From a virus: a stretch of 22,118 bases of DNA. The notes beneath the pieces were generated by a model, which made no database searches, was not told where the DNA came from, and worked only from the letters and a program-made list of their open reading frames with translations. How positions within the stretch are numbered: position 1 is the stretch's first letter; each line of letters begins with the position of its first letter. A program made the position numbers and the translations under genes. The stretch is from positions 1 to 22,118 of the IMG/VR virus record IMGVR_UViG_3300013131_000274; one strand, 5' to 3'. Below are positions 1-21,895 of this stretch, piece by piece.

Positions 1-2611
1 ATTTTGTAGTTTTTGCAACTTCAATTTTACCATGTTTGGATCTAATTGACATAGTAGTAGATTGTATATCTGCAGTTAATGTTTCTATGTATGTTTTTAA
101 TAAATTAATTCTAGAATCTATAACGTTATTTTTATTGATAGCAGATTCATTCTGTTTAAATGATTCTTGTCGTTCTAAACATGTTTCTAATTCAGATTCG
201 CGAGTTTGCAATTCATTTTCTAAAATTTGAAGTTGTAACTCATTTCTGTCTAATAAGTTTTTTTGTACGTCTAAACTAGTTTGTAATTTAGTTAATCGTT
301 CTTGTTTGGTTACGAATTCTTCTAATTGAGTTAATTCAGATTCTAAATTTGAAATTTTAGTTTCAATATCTGTTAATATTTTTCTATCTGCTTCAATTGT
401 ATTCTTGGCTTCGATTGCATTCTGCACAAAAACGTTAGATGTACAGTATTGGCAGTTTGGATCATATTCATGTTCGGAAAGATGATCAATTTTTTCTTGT
501 TTTGCATTTACAACTCCTCGTTGTTTTTTTAATGATTGAGTAGCATCATTTATTTGATTTTGTATTTTACTATATTCTTTAACTTTAACATCAATTAATT
601 TTGAATCATATTCTGCAATTGAAGTTTCAATTGTATCAACTTTATCAACTAAATCATCAATATCAGTTTCCAATTGTGCAATATCAGTTTGTAACGTTTC
701 AATTTTATCCGTTAATGTTTTTTCTTGTTTTTTAAGTGAATCGATATTCGGACCATCATATGTAGTTGGTAATTTTGATTCAATTAACTCTAATATTTCT
801 TGTTGTTTTTTATTTCTAGATTCTTGTAATTCATTTTCCGCTGCATCCAAATCTATAATATCTTGTTGATATTCTGTAATTATAGTCTGTGCATCATTAA
901 TAATTGTAGAAAAATCTGTTTTCTTATATTCTTTTAATTTACCAGCAGTTTCTTTTATTTCCTCATTTGCTAATTGATATAATTGTTCAAATACCGTAAT
1001 ATCTAAAAACTGTGATAATAAATCTTTTCTTTCACGTTGTGATTTTTCAATGAAGTTGTTATTATCTGCTTGTAATGAAAATGCAGTTAAAATAAAATCA
1101 TCATATGTACCTAAATATTTACGAATATTTTTATTTGTTTCACTACGCTCTTCTCCATTTAAGTTTTCTGAATCTGTATAAAATTCTACATTAACTTTAA
1201 CATGCCCGTTACGATTTTTTACACCTTCGCGTTCAATTGTATATGTAGTACCATTAAGTTCAAAAACAAATTTACCGTAAAATCTAGATTTCTTATTATT
1301 TAAAACTTCATGTGCTTTACCTGTTTTACTACATTTATCAAATATTGTATATGTAATTGCATCTAGTAATGATGATTTACCACTCGTATTTGCAGCAAAT
1401 AATCCGCATACATCTTTTAAATTAGTAAAATCAATTTTATTATTTTCACCATATGAAAACATGTTATCAAATTCAAATGACACCGGATGCCATGTCATAT
1501 GCCTAACAGATTCAACTGCTGGTAATTTAGAATTAACTGTTCTATTAATATGTCGTATTGCATCCATTTCTTCAGTCGTTGCTTGAGGAAATGTAATTGC
1601 AATATAATCAGATAACAATGTGTTTTGATATTCTACATCTCGAACATTACCAATACTAATCGATGATGTTGTATTAGTTGATATACTCTGTGCATTTCGT
1701 TGGATTGTAATATCTTGAACATCGTATCGGTTACGTAAGTTTGCAATTAACTTTTTCATGTCAGCAGCTGACGTATCTTTAAATTTAATTCGAATTCTCG
1801 GTTTTTGTGGCATACGAGTTGGAGTATTAACTATTGTAGTATCTTCAACTTCTATAGTTACATAACCATATTCATTTTCAATTTCTACAAATTCAGCTGA
1901 ACTAGTTTTTATATCCCAAACCAACATTCCGTGTATCAAAGCTTCGCCATGATTTTGTTGTATTAAAGAACCTGGATATGCAATAGTTTTTTCATCATTT
2001 AAAAACTGAGCTGGTTTGTGTATATCGCCTAACAATGTAATGTCATGTCCTTTAAATAATTCGGTAGTTACATTTTCATTTGTTATTTGATATCCGATGT
2101 CTGTTTTTGCTGTATTAACTGCTCCGTGATGTAATGCAATTTTATATAGTGCATTAAACTGATCTGCGGTAATGTATTCCGACGGAGCTACATCAACTGC
2201 CATATGATTAAATATAACGCCACCTAGTTCAAATAAACCATTTTCTTTTATAAAAATAATATTAGGATTCTGTATTACATCTAATATCGGACTAATTGCG
2301 TCGATTCGGTGCATATTATTTAAATTCATGTCATGGTTACCTAATATAACAACAGTAGGTATCGTAAATCCATTAAAGAATTCAATTAATATTTGCACTA
2401 ACTCCGGAGACATATCTAATTTGCTATGAACAATATCACCGGTTAAAACTACGATAGTTCCCGGAGTTGATAATCTTGCAATTTCATTGTGCATTGTATT
2501 AAATACAGCTCGATATTCTTTATGTCGTTTTAATGTACGAATATGTATATCACTGATGTGAATAATTTTTTCAAGTTGATTAATATAAGTGTCTATATGT
2601 TTTATATCCAT
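1..2611 (-). CDS. sbcD-sbcC: SbcD-SbcC (Mre11-Rad50, gp47-gp46) fusion, 3' end beyond window
   Basis: One frame stays open from the ATG at 2611 to the left edge: 870 codons with no stop, checked triplet by triplet. Residues 1-370 are an SbcD/gp47-like metallophosphoesterase with HISDIH (18-23), GDIVH (59-63), GNHD (91-94), HH (161-162) and GDIHKP (195-200). Residues 375 onward are SbcC/gp46-like: Walker A ANTSGKSS with K412, a Q-loop-like SLQ (Q514), then a long Glu/Lys/Gln-rich coiled coil interrupted by a zinc hook CQYC (720-723). The returning coil begins before the edge; Walker B and the signature motif must lie outside the window. Family knowledge: the complex resects and trims DNA ends for recombination-dependent replication, normally as two polypeptides. 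The start overlaps the primase stop by 10 nt, suggesting translational coupling. An internal ATG at M372 has only a poor AGG upstream, so two products from one frame cannot be fully excluded. Confidence 0.93.
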   Translation of the reverse strand, partial: MDIKHIDTYINQLEKIIHISDIHIRTLKRHKEYRAVFNTMHNEIARLSTPGTIVVLTGDIVHSKLDMSPELVQILIEFFNGFTIPTVVILGNHDMNLNNMHRIDAISPILDVIQNPNIIFIKENGLFELGGVIFNHMAVDVAPSEYITADQFNALYKIALHHGAVNTAKTDIGYQITNENVTTELFKGHDITLLGDIHKPAQFLNDEKTIAYPGSLIQQNHGEALIHGMLVWDIKTSSAEFVEIENEYGYVTIEVEDTTIVNTPTRMPQKPRIRIKFKDTSAADMKKLIANLRNRYDVQDITIQRNAQSISTNTTSSISIGNVRDVEYQNTLLSDYIAITFPQATTEEMDAIRHINRTVNSKLPAVESVRHMTWHPVSFEFDNMFSYGENNKIDFTNLKDVCGLFAANTSGKSSLLDAITYTIFDKCSKTGKAHEVLNNKKSRFYGKFVFELNGTTYTIEREGVKNRNGHVKVNVEFYTDSENLNGEERSETNKNIRKYLGTYDDFILTAFSLQADNNNFIEKSQRERKDLLSQFLDITVFEQLYQLANEEIKETAGKLKEYKKTDFSTIINDAQTIITEYQQDIIDLDAAENELQESRNKKQQEILELIESKLPTTYDGPNIDSLKKQEKTLTDKIETLQTDIAQLETDIDDLVDKVDTIETSIAEYDSKLIDVKVKEYSKIQNQINDATQSLKKQRGVVNAKQEKIDHLSEHEYDPNCQYCTSNVFVQNAIEAKNTIEADRKILTDIETKISNLESELTQLEEFVTKQERLTKLQTSLDVQKNLLDRNELQLQILENELQTRESELETCLERQESFKQNESAINKNNVIDSRINLLKTYIETLTADIQSTTMSIRSKHGKIEVAKTTK

Positions 2612-3549
2612 AACATACCCATTTTTATTTGCATTAACCGTTCAAAAGTTAATACATCAGTATTATTAATAATTTCGTTTATTTTTTTAAATCCTAATTC
2701 AGAAGCGTCTTGGTTTCGCAATTCAATTAAATGTACATTTAATCCTTCACCCATAAATTTCTCAGCAATACCTAACGCATTTTTTATCGCATCTGCATCT
2801 AAACATATGTATATATCCGTAACGCGTTTCTCAATAATTTTTTTCTGTAGTGCGGGTTGAATTATTTTACCGAATAGTGGTATTGAATTTCGTTTAACTG
2901 CAATTGCATCGAAAGCACCTTCACAAAGAATAATTGGCTGTGACCAATTAATTAACATATCAAAACCAATTATATCCTTTGAAACATCAGGATTTTTATG
3001 TTTTTGTGTATCTGATTTATAAAATGCTCTGGATACAAAATAATTTAATTGACCATCGGCATCATAACTAGGTATTATTATCTTCCCAGAATATTTACCA
3101 GTTTCGCAATAACCTATTCTATATTTTAAAATATCAAATACTGTAATACCTCTATTTTTTAAATAATGTATAGCATTTCGATAATCAGGAGATTTCTTTG
3201 GTTTCCATAACGGAATATATTCTACAGGAAGTTGTAATATTGTTTGTTTTACCGTTTCGTTAGTTAAAATGGTTTTATATTTTGATTGATCAATTATTTT
3301 AATTAATTGCTCGAAATATTGTTTTGGTAAATTCAATTGTTTGAATAATGAAGATATCGATCTTCCTTTTTTGTCAGATATCCAACAGTGCCATGGATTT
3401 TCACCGTTATGGTTTGTGTGTATATCTATTTCTAATTTTGGTTTATGGTGTGATTGGAATGGAGAAAAAAAAGCAATATTATTTCCGGATGTAGGTTTTC
3501 CTTTACCTAATACTGATTCTAATAATTGTAATAGTTTTAAGTTCTTCAT
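2602..3549 (-). CDS. DNA primase, DnaG/gp61-like with TOPRIM domain
   Basis: This 315-aa protein has a DnaG-type catalytic core. A GKIIIPSYDADGQ strand-turn (155-167) is followed by FVSRAFY, and a TOPRIM fold carries ILCEGAFDA (E210) and the acidic pair LDADA (D251, D253). Such primases make short RNA primers for lagging-strand synthesis, usually with a replicative helicase. Length is close to that of T4 gp61 (about 340 aa). The N-terminal part (27-62) looks like a CHC2 zinc-finger region, but two expected ligands seem replaced: SPFQSHH where CPFH is usual, and WHCWISDKKG with a single cysteine. It is the first gene after the 188-nt spacer, and its last codons overlap the SbcD-SbcC start. No clear Shine-Dalgarno is visible before ATG 3549. 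A generic TOPRIM protein is the alternative, but the core motifs favour primase. Confidence 0.85.
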   Translation of the reverse strand: MKNLKLLQLLESVLGKGKPTSGNNIAFFSPFQSHHKPKLEIDIHTNHNGENPWHCWISDKKGRSISSLFKQLNLPKQYFEQLIKIIDQSKYKTILTNETVKQTILQLPVEYIPLWKPKKSPDYRNAIHYLKNRGITVFDILKYRIGYCETGKYSGKIIIPSYDADGQLNYFVSRAFYKSDTQKHKNPDVSKDIIGFDMLINWSQPIILCEGAFDAIAVKRNSIPLFGKIIQPALQKKIIEKRVTDIYICLDADAIKNALGIAEKFMGEGLNVHLIELRNQDASELGFKKINEIINNTDVLTFERLMQIKMGMLWI

Positions 3550-3737: not shown

Positions 3738-4220
3738 TTAATTAAAAAAGTTACGTGTTACCTTCGGTTGCTCGCCTGACTTTATACATTCAGATAACCA
3801 TTCGACAGGAATATCTTTTTTTGCAACATATTTTATGCCTAATTTGTTTGCATATGATTCGTATGTAGTCGTAGAAGCTTTTGAAATTTTTTGGTTAGGA
3901 TTTTGGAATACCATTCGAATATCAATACCAGGATTTGAAATTAAAACATGTTTCATTTTTAAACGATCAACAGAAGTCCATCGTCCTTTAGTTTCTATAA
4001 ACATGAATTCTCCAGTTTTTTTAGTAAACACAAAATCCGGCGTATATTTTGCTTTACGCTCTGGTACTACATAATGTATAGTTTCTGTCTCGTATTTCAA
4101 ATCATATTCGGTAGATTCTATTTGTTTCGAAACCGTATGTTCTAACCCAGATTTATAACCGTATTTATAAGCTTCGCTGCGAGTTTTACTTCCCGCAGAA
4201 TGCCAATGATTTTTTGCCAT
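3738..4220 (-). CDS. T7 endonuclease I-like Holliday junction resolvase
   Basis: This 160-aa protein closely follows the T7 gp3 (endonuclease I) pattern: YKSGLEHTVSKQIE (22-35), a beta-rich stretch, YTPDFVF (59-65), FIETKGRW (74-81), VDRLKMK (84-90), GIDIRMVF (98-105), and a GIKYV...IPVEWL tail. The metal-binding catalytic residues of the family are all present: E27, D62, E76 and K78. T7 endonuclease I acts as a dimer that cuts branched DNA, resolving recombination and replication junctions before packaging and degrading host DNA. Length matches T7 gp3 (149 aa). The Shine-Dalgarno AAGGAT overlaps the stop of the upstream tail gene, 6 nt away, so the two may be co-translated. T4 itself uses the unrelated gp49 (endonuclease VII), so this is a different resolvase type in a T4-like setting. 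Confidence 0.93.
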   Translation of the reverse strand: MAKNHWHSAGSKTRSEAYKYGYKSGLEHTVSKQIESTEYDLKYETETIHYVVPERKAKYTPDFVFTKKTGEFMFIETKGRWTSVDRLKMKHVLISNPGIDIRMVFQNPNQKISKASTTTYESYANKLGIKYVAKKDIPVEWLSECIKSGEQPKVTRNFFN

Positions 4221-7030: not shown

Positions 7031-7738
7031 TTAAGTTGTTTTTATCGTAAATGGAATTATTACATAATTACCAGTCTCATTACCAATAATCGTTATACTA
7101 CCAGTTTTAGTCTTAGTTCCTTGTGTATTTGCAACTTTTGCTTTAAATGTAAACTCTAACCCAACTACTGTTTGCGTTTTGTTTTCAGACGCATCGCCCA
7201 TAAAATCCGGATCTAATTCCGCAGTTGCATCTGATGATAACTTTGTAGTAACTGCTAAAATACCCAATGTTGCATCTGATAATATAGCAGTATACCCCAA
7301 CGTAGTATTTAATTGTACATTAGTCTGTTCAGTACCATCTTGTGTATAATACGAAATAGATGGTTTTATTGAATATCCGGTACTGTTAGAAGTAATTGGT
7401 TTTTGGGCTGATGTTGAACTCAATGATGTAACTACATCAATAATTGGAATTCCAACAATATTACCGGTATCTCCAGTTGCTTTTGTTATAGTAATCAATT
7501 TAGAACGCATATGTTGAGATTCGTCAGGTACAGCTTCTACTAACGGCATATTTTCGATAACAATACCATAATAATTACTACCTAATGGATGTTTTGGGTT
7601 CCATAATGTATAATCAATTTCATCATCACTTAATGCAAATTTAGTAATACTTAATTGACCCCCTTTTGCTAGTATTTCTCGACCTTTTTTAGTTAATATT
7701 GCATCAACTGTAACTGTGTTATTGTCTAGATATCCCAT
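7031..7738 (-). CDS. Conserved phage structural protein (GYLDNNTVTVDAILTKKG type)
   Basis: 235 aa. The N-terminus (GYLDNNTVTVDAILTKKGRE, then ITKFALSDDEIDYTLWNP) is a pattern I recognise from large T4-like phages, where it occurs in conserved proteins among tail genes. No biochemical role is known to me. The first 90 residues look like a mixed alpha/beta domain that may mediate attachment to the tail. The rest (about 95-235) is beta-rich and ends in ITIIGNETGNYVIIPFTI, which resembles an immunoglobulin-like or similar beta-sandwich. A Shine-Dalgarno AAGGAT precedes the ATG by 10 nt. Position between the 1167-aa tail protein and two surface proteins fits a connector or short-fibre component. 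Confidence 0.6.
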   Translation of the reverse strand: MGYLDNNTVTVDAILTKKGREILAKGGQLSITKFALSDDEIDYTLWNPKHPLGSNYYGIVIENMPLVEAVPDESQHMRSKLITITKATGDTGNIVGIPIIDVVTSLSSTSAQKPITSNSTGYSIKPSISYYTQDGTEQTNVQLNTTLGYTAILSDATLGILAVTTKLSSDATAELDPDFMGDASENKTQTVVGLEFTFKAKVANTQGTKTKTGSITIIGNETGNYVIIPFTIKTT

Positions 7739-20140: not shown

Positions 20141-20851
20141 TCAAAAGGGAAGATTTATGAAATTTGTTTGTTCGTATTTTTTAAAATTATCGGCATATAT
20201 TTGTTGTAATACTTTAACAACCCGAGTGATTACATTAGTTTGTGAAATATCTAAATTAGTTCGTTCCCGAATTAAAATATACAAACGTTTTTTATTAAAA
20301 TCTTCAATTAATTCTCGATTTTCGAATACATGTAATATTGAATCAGCAACATGTATATCAACTGGATTATTAAATATATAATTTAAATTATTATAACAAT
20401 AAGTAACATATGCATTCATAAAATATTGCAATGTTTCTCGCATTTCATCATTATGAATTTCTGTAATTACATTTCGCTGTTCATCAATATCTAATTCATC
20501 AGAATCTGATTTTAATTTTTTATACGATCTAGCATTTTCTCCAATTAAATAATTATAAGAAGTTCTTGTATAATACGAATATGCTTTACCAGCATCTGGT
20601 TTAAATTTATTTAATCGTTCAGTTAAATGTGTCACTAAATCAGTTTGTAAATCTTCAAACGCTGAATCAATATACGTAGGTTTAACTGTATTAATTAAAT
20701 TTTCTGCCATTTTCATAAAGGCAGGATATATAAATCTACGATAAATTCTTTCTCGTTTAACTGAGTTTTCAGGTATGCTATTATATGCTATAATAGCTAT
20801 TTCGGTTATTTTTGTAAAATATACATTACTTTTCTTCGCTTTCTTCGCCAT
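20141..20851 (-). CDS. gp55: Late-transcription sigma factor, gp55-like
   Basis: 236 aa from the ATG at 20851; a TTG one codon upstream is possible but less likely. The segment RERIYRRFIYPAFMKMAENL (about 37-56) followed by INTVKPTY, DLQTDLVTHLTERLNKFKPD and GKAYSYYTRTSYNYLIGENA (about 69-111) is the gp55/sigma region 2-like core, including the aromatic-rich stretch that contacts and melts the -10 element. An acidic segment (SDSDELDIDEQRNV) and a helical C-terminal half follow. T4 gp55 (185 aa) directs host polymerase to TATAAATA late promoters together with gp33 and the sliding clamp. It overlaps the preceding membrane-protein gene by 26 nt and comes immediately before the virion block, so it probably drives those genes. 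Confidence 0.85.
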   Translation of the reverse strand: MAKKAKKSNVYFTKITEIAIIAYNSIPENSVKRERIYRRFIYPAFMKMAENLINTVKPTYIDSAFEDLQTDLVTHLTERLNKFKPDAGKAYSYYTRTSYNYLIGENARSYKKLKSDSDELDIDEQRNVITEIHNDEMRETLQYFMNAYVTYCYNNLNYIFNNPVDIHVADSILHVFENRELIEDFNKKRLYILIRERTNLDISQTNVITRVVKVLQQIYADNFKKYEQTNFINLPF

Positions 20852-21122
20852 CAAAATCTGTTTTAAGTTCTGTTATAACTTGTTTCAACATATCAAATGT
20901 TGTACCTGCTTCATCATCTTTCTCAAACGCACCTAAACGATCTATGTTTTGCATTGTGTCGTATGAATTAACAATTCGCTCATACATGTATTCATTGGTT
21001 AATTCTAATTGCTCGATGTATTCTTGTGCATCTGCTAAGTCACCAGCTAATTTATACGCTCGATAAACAAAGTATGCATTAACAATAATTGATACAAAAA
21101 GTAAACTGGATATTATAATCAT
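20826..21122 (-). CDS. Small single-pass membrane protein with coiled coil
   Basis: 98 aa. Residues about 2-22 (IIISSLLFVSIIVNAYFVYR) form one clear hydrophobic transmembrane segment or signal anchor. About 27-65 is a charged, heptad-like helix (LADAQEYIEQLELTNEYMYE), and the C-terminus is acidic (ELKTDFDGEESEEK). Predicted topology is a short N-terminus outside or within the membrane and the coiled coil in the cytoplasm; this is inferred. It lies between the HD-domain gene (2-nt gap) and the sigma factor (26-nt overlap). No family name is recognised. It could be a spanin-like or inner-membrane effector, but no lipobox or partner gene supports that. Confidence 0.65.
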   Translation of the reverse strand: MIIISSLLFVSIIVNAYFVYRAYKLAGDLADAQEYIEQLELTNEYMYERIVNSYDTMQNIDRLGAFEKDDEAGTTFDMLKQVITELKTDFDGEESEEK

Positions 21123-21124
21123 GA

Positions 21125-21895
21125 TTAATCTAAATTAAATGAACTAAATATATCTGCAATTGCAGTTCCAACTTCAGGATTATTTTCTGATAAGTTTTTT
21201 ATTGCATTGCTTCTTTGTGTTTTGCTTTTATCTGCTGTAGGTGCTGCAAATTTACCTGACTTCCATCGCTCATATTCAATAATTGATGCCATATGATCTG
21301 CATGGTGCAATATTACCGGTAAATTAGTTTTCAATTTAGCTTGAGCTGATCTTGCAACAAAATACGGTTTATTTGCTTCGTCATACAGACCATCATGAAT
21401 TTTAATTGCTTGGTATTCGTTCCAAGAAACTTTAACCCCATATTCTTGCAACAACCATATAGATAAATCAGGTACCATAGTAAACGGAATATTTGCATTT
21501 GTTTTATATAATTTACCTTGGTTTTTACGATGCCAATCTGATGTTTCTACTTGGTATACTTCATTACCCTCACCAGGAAACCCAGCTTTACCTAAGTCGT
21601 GATGCATTGCAGCAAACAACAATTCTTCTCTAGTATAACCTGTCATATCAGCTCCTTGAGATGACCAAGTAAAATGCAATGCTTCAGCACATTCCATTAC
21701 TCGAAGAATATGATCTACATAACCACCAGCAAATGCATTGTGAAAGTGTTCCATGGAAGAAGCTGGCATAAATACCATACGGTCTTCTAACTCATCATAC
21801 ATTCGATTTAATGCATCTTTACGGGTAGGAAATGAGGTATTAACAATTTCTCGATAGCGTTCCCAATTTTCTTTGATTTTTTCTGCTTCTAACAT
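21125..21895 (-). CDS. HD-domain phosphohydrolase
   Basis: 256 aa with a complete HD motif series: H62 (YVDHILRV), HHD (98-100, in AAMHHDLGK), H167 (KIHDG) and the H197-H198...D200 cluster (LHHADH). These residues bind divalent metal in phosphohydrolases that act on nucleotides or nucleic acid. The N-terminus (WERYREIVNTSFPTRKDALN) and MPASSMEHFHNAFAGGYVDH are patterns I recognise from HD proteins of large T4-like phages. The substrate is not known; a nucleotidase or a cyclic- or alarmone-signal hydrolase are possibilities. It sits 2 nt downstream of the zinc-ribbon gene and 2 nt upstream of the membrane protein gene. No strong Shine-Dalgarno is visible. Confidence 0.85.
   Translation of the reverse strand: MLEAEKIKENWERYREIVNTSFPTRKDALNRMYDELEDRMVFMPASSMEHFHNAFAGGYVDHILRVMECAEALHFTWSSQGADMTGYTREELLFAAMHHDLGKAGFPGEGNEVYQVETSDWHRKNQGKLYKTNANIPFTMVPDLSIWLLQEYGVKVSWNEYQAIKIHDGLYDEANKPYFVARSAQAKLKTNLPVILHHADHMASIIEYERWKSGKFAAPTADKSKTQRSNAIKNLSENNPEVGTAIADIFSSFNLD

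Follow-up and report, generated by a model that had tools for sequence, protein, structure and literature searches.

The left end of a 22,118-base virus record (IMG/VR record IMGVR_UViG_3300013131_000274; we call this whole stretch the window) raises the question of whether a phage carries the nuclease SbcD (Mre11) and the ATPase SbcC (Rad50) as a single protein, and if so, what that protein does. A preliminary description had proposed an in-frame fusion of an SbcD/Mre11-like nuclease and an SbcC/Rad50-like ATPase. The frame is open from an ATG at 2611 down to position 2, for 870 codons, with no stop before the left edge of the contig, which truncates a gene of about 1046 codons (2..2611, minus strand, as are all of its features below). 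Within this one frame, each half matches its own family: residues 14-337 match SbcD in PHROG (E = 8e-23) and residues 281-859 match SbcC (E = 6e-38). Residues 15-200 also match Metallophos from Pfam (E = 2.2e-11), and solved Rad50 chains from the PDB match residues 384-560. The gene is a real, conserved SbcD-SbcC fusion in a lake phage. We think that it very probably encodes a single-chain Mre11-Rad50 (SbcD-SbcC) end-resection enzyme of the virus-borne type represented by Mimivirus R555.

The window stops short of the ABC signature and Walker B, and we read the C-terminal motifs from full-length relatives. A scan of the viral contigs in IMG/VR found 448 stretches that encode relatives, and we kept the best 80 of the 448 (66-87% identity). 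These 80 have the same fused frame, and nearly all of them cover residues 1-870. Among them, a stop closes the frame inside the contig at 74 loci, of which two are truncated at the 5' end. The remaining 72 full-length homologues are mostly 1046-1049 amino acids long, with no stop at the junction. (The nearest relatives have 1046 amino acids, instead of the total near 1070 that had been predicted.) Walker A, the CxxC hook, a TSGxE signature, and Walker B are present in all 72. In the part that lies beyond the window, and in the same frame, these relatives have the signature TSGMERF, the Walker B motif AIDEG, and ISHVD. Walker B and an LSGG-like signature are thus both where the preliminary description said to look for them, but the signature is TSGME, with Met at the second Gly of SGG.

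To see how the parts are arranged, we used an AlphaFold2 model of a full-length homologue (L007), built with 48 sequences (mean pLDDT of 83; the pTM of 0.45 indicates low global confidence). In the model, the nuclease is followed by a capping-like region of strands and one helix (approximately residues 241-310; 1682..1891) and then by a predicted helix-loop-helix, which is the element of Mre11 that binds Rad50 (residues 326-360; 1532..1636). Its helices are at 326-340 and 346-360, and the pLDDT of this block is mostly 84-93. After a linker (residues 361-373; 1493..1531), the first strand of the ATPase starts at 373, and the ATPase N-lobe (residues 374-560; 932..1492) leads to helices that run out and back around the hook, and then to the C-lobe.

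Of 48 aligned homologues, 44 have a linker of 13 residues and the other 4 have one of 14, and this holds down to 23% identity; the length of the junction is the same in 72 of 73 aligned sequences. Differences between the window and L007 by codon position are 102/65/255 across the whole gene and 1/0/9 across residues 355-385. The excess at third positions continues through the junction, which indicates coding constraint on one continuous coding sequence. So the halves do not abut with little or no linker, as first thought: 13-14 residues follow a complete helix-loop-helix. It had also been argued that the geometry of a fused complex must differ from that of separate proteins. In the Thermotoga maritima complex, the C-terminus of Mre11 is about 28 Å from the N-terminus of Rad50, which a linker of 9-12 residues fits (PMC3175470). 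With the helix-loop-helix retained and 13-14 residues to span this gap, the geometry need not differ. Alternatively, the length-locked linker might lead the helix-loop-helix to dock on the coil root of the partner chain (a domain swap), which would make the protein an obligate dimer whose gating cycle differs from the one in separate Mre11 and Rad50. We consider this quite unlikely. The fixed 1:1 stoichiometry that had been proposed is a direct consequence of having a single chain.

The nuclease half has a calcineurin-like phosphoesterase domain (residues 1-240; 1892..2611; identified by Metallophos and by SbcD of PHROG). In an alignment of 48 homologues, motifs I to IV are canonical: SDIH at residues 20-23 (2543..2554), with D21 and H23 invariant; GDIVH at residues 58-62 (2426..2440), with G58 and D59 invariant; GNHD at residues 91-94 (2330..2341), which is invariant; and HHG at residues 161-163 (2123..2131), with H162 invariant. 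Motif V (residues 195-198; 2018..2029) is also invariant, but it is GDIH, with Asp replacing the canonical His of Mre11. All five motifs (DxH, GDxx, GNHD, H, and GHxH) had been described as present, which is correct for the first four, while the fifth is a variant. Motif V is GHxH in T4, S-SKS1, EF24C, and Thermus.

Because of this Asp, which occurs across the window's clade, the nuclease might be inactive, and the protein might have a structural role in tethering DNA ends. The remaining motif residues are invariant across 48 diverse homologues, however, and the split SbcD proteins of the T5-like phages Thalassa and PSTCR5 have the same Asp (GDLH). Also, Asp is a competent metal ligand. A purely structural role seems quite unlikely, although with Asp for a metal-binding His and SGME for SGGE, the sequence suggests that catalysis could differ or be weak. 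We also considered whether the Asp in motif V tracks the fusion, and rejected this: motif V is GHxH in the fused proteins of Carin-5, YerA41, and PAU, and GDLH in the split proteins of Thalassa and PSTCR5.

The ATPase half has the features expected of Rad50, at the positions that were first reported. Walker A is AANTSGKS (residues 406-413, including K412; 1373..1396), and N408, G411, and K412 are invariant in the 48-homologue alignment. The Q-loop is SLQ (residues 512-514; 1070..1078), with Q514 in at least 90% of the rows. The coiled coil has a zinc hook, CQYC (residues 720-723; 443..454). M372 is encoded by an in-frame ATG that directly precedes the ATPase and has a weak AGG a short distance upstream of it, so a separate SbcC-like product might be made from this Met in addition to the whole fusion. 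But this residue is Met in just 43 of 73 sequences (it is Thr in 22, Val in 6, Ser in 1, and Ile in 1), even though the junction does not vary in length. An internal start is highly unlikely, and the absence of the Met from the other 30 sequences speaks against a split at M372.

The ATPase half is also similar to components of defense systems. It matches LmuB from PADLOC (E = 6.5e-30) and, weakly, JetC, and the PDB search by fold also picked up structures from Lamassu and Jet. This raises the possibility of a defense-related, SMC-like ATPase with a nuclease, in the style of Lamassu LmuB or Wadjet JetC, instead of an enzyme of replication and recombination. However, Mre11-Rad50/SbcCD head complexes are the top-ranking fold matches, the protein begins with an SbcD-type nuclease, the PADLOC match is confined to the ATPase half, and LmuB is itself related to Rad50 and SMC. 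The conserved neighborhood of the gene (discussed below) also argues against a role in defense, as does the lack of any other SbcD-type gene in those longer near relatives that we examined. This reading is very improbable and we rejected it. Among viral structures (BFVD), the best fold matches are DNA repair exonucleases of giant viruses, of approximately 970-1390 amino acids, followed by the fusions of Tenacibaculum phages. The top rows are proteins from Tupanvirus, Harvfovirus, Yasminevirus, and Catovirus (E = 4e-72 to 1e-56, 19-24% identity).

Upstream of the fusion, and on the same strand, are a DnaG/Toprim-type primase (2602..3549; PHROG DNA primase, E = 2e-28), whose 3' end overlaps the start of the fusion, and a T7-type endonuclease I of the Holliday junction resolvase family (3738..4220; Phage_endo_I in Pfam, E = 1.6e-33). 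The order endonuclease I, primase, fusion is found in the window and in its nearest relatives, wherever the contig reaches far enough. Seven contigs of 72-169 kb each have one match to SbcC and one to SbcD, both in the fused gene. In the isolate genome of Microcystis phage Mel-JY01 (190 kb), the fusion is the sole match to SbcD, and two further matches to SbcC are weak and short. Thus, no separate SbcD was found elsewhere in the genomes of the longer near relatives that we examined, including Mel-JY01. A RecA-family recombinase is present in 7 of 8 larger relatives. Among plasmids, the only match was on a Thermus plasmid, to 22% of the query and on separate genes.

Mel-JY01 encodes a full-length fusion (WWT39521.1, annotated as "AAA domain containing protein"; 1066 amino acids) that is 40.7% identical over 85% of the window's fragment. 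As in the window, there is a primase upstream; in Mel-JY01 it is two genes from the fusion. Unlike in the window, a GIY-YIG gene takes the place of endonuclease I, and a DNA methyltransferase-like gene follows the fusion. The contig edge does truncate our gene, and T4, EF24C, and S-SKS1 carry two genes, but the chance that gp47 and gp46 genes were joined by an assembly or sequencing artifact (a missed frameshift or a lost stop) is negligible, as the 72 independent full-length relatives all read through the junction, with the near-constant length given above, and Mel-JY01 has a single coding sequence.

The remainder of the window is a module for a contractile tail and baseplate. The tail-module genes at 7031-7738 and 21125-21895, their order, and a 71% DNA match are shared with Flavobacterium phage immuto. 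This kinship hints at a Bacteroidota host for the window's phage, while the nearest isolate with a similar fusion infects Microcystis. In immuto itself (L096:447-2151), an exonuclease (phrog_298) follows the primase, and we found no match to SbcC in its genome; possibly, the exonuclease replaces the fusion. Also, a 237-amino-acid protein at 20141-20854 has a weak sigma-70-like match (E = 0.0019), so it is possibly a late sigma factor similar to gp55 of T4.

How does the window's gene compare to known systems? Proteins with N-terminal Mre11 and C-terminal Rad50 were described in 2011: Mimivirus R555 and twelve others, including cases from Bacillus phage 0305phi8-36, plasmids, and eukaryotes (Yoshida, Claverie and Ogata 2011, PMC3175470). 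So the fusion is not exceptional, as it had first seemed, and given that study, there is nothing unexpected in the fusion or in its geometry. R555 has Asp in place of His206 in motif V (PMC3175470). The proteins of the R555 type and the window's protein share the order of the two domains in one chain and this His-to-Asp change; both also keep the helix-loop-helix and have a linker that is about a dozen residues long. Homologues of R555 are plentiful in aquatic samples and mostly viral, and their scaffolds carry phage primases and T7-gp3-type endonucleases (PMC3175470), similar to the neighbors in the window. R555 has 1351 amino acids and is from Mimivirus, while the window's type has 1046 and is from a tailed phage; the likeness to R555 is by its published description. 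For full-length fusions of this type from tailed phages, the 2011 study had confirmation in just a few long sequences from metagenomes (PMC3175470). By comparison, gp47/gp46 of T4 and SbcD/SbcC of the Herelleviridae have the same two activities and the same operon order, but these are encoded by separate genes, with GHxH for motif V and SEGE in the signature instead of TSGME.

Fusions are also found in Tenacibaculum phages, in Sphingomonas phage PAU, in huge phages, and in a second clade from phages of proteobacteria and Thermus. This clade (Cobetia phage Carin-5, Rhizobium phage TM30, Vibrio phage 1.031.O, Acinetobacter phage Ab1-TPeters, and Thermus phage phiLo) also has SbcD and SbcC in a single chain, but with an LSGGQ signature and with Walker A closer to the N-terminus. 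In a tree of the concatenated halves, the window's family and its fused neighbors (18 rows) group together with full support, and the eight remaining fused proteins form a second clade; a single clade of fused proteins was not rejected (p-AU = 0.31). In a sister clade of fused proteins (L114, L118, L122, and L124), a pattern search did not find a CxxC hook, and the total length is similar.

Some of these genes are interrupted or split. In a 484 kb uncultured phage (LR756508.1; L003:4980-9205), an insert of about 1 kb interrupts the nuclease of the fused gene after GDIHKRQ, and the frame resumes near SGSLIQQ. Pfam finds a TnsA-like endonuclease domain (E = 5.8e-6) in a 305-codon open reading frame of the insert, which looks like a mobile insertion or an intron; a search of the insert for a group I intron gave no Rfam match above threshold. 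In Yersinia phage YerA41 (L089:1405-4442), a frame of 827 amino acids covers the nuclease, the N-lobe of the ATPase, and part of the coil, and the C-lobe is in a separate, overlapping open reading frame of about 185 amino acids, so this fusion is split at another place. The protein from Carin-5, which is 47% identical to that of YerA41, is intact. A 735 kb uncultured phage has a second strong match to SbcC beside its fusion (LR756501.1, 670999-672753), whose frame crosses four TAA/TAG stops; either this copy is broken or the gene is recoded. Finally, fused relatives L135-L143 are on contigs that were binned into bacterial and archaeal metagenome-assembled genomes. These contigs (that of L142 is 305 kb) are probably misbinned phages.

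As for what the single-chain enzyme does, its likely job, by analogy, is end resection for recombination-dependent replication, in which a role for T4 gp46/gp47 has been proposed (as summarized in PMC3175470). Each chain would run from the nuclease through the capping region, the Rad50-binding helix-loop-helix, the linker, the ATPase N-lobe, the coil with its zinc hook, and the returning coil to the C-lobe. Based on known complexes, two chains would dimerize via their ATPase heads and nuclease domains to form the usual M2R2 head, in which each nuclease is joined to an ATPase, and the helix-loop-helix would dock on the root of the coil, as in the separate proteins. Closure driven by ATP would then gate the action of the nuclease at DNA ends or hairpins. 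The resulting 3' ends might pass to the RecA-type recombinase of the phage, to be used in recombination-dependent replication and in repair, while the adjoining primase would prime synthesis and the T7-type endonuclease I would resolve branched products.

These genes add to a class that was known but had been little documented: full-length R555-type fusions from tailed phages, with a linker of fixed length and a conserved cassette for replication and recombination. And as a natural single-chain Mre11-Rad50, the protein lends itself as a construct for structural studies of the head complex.
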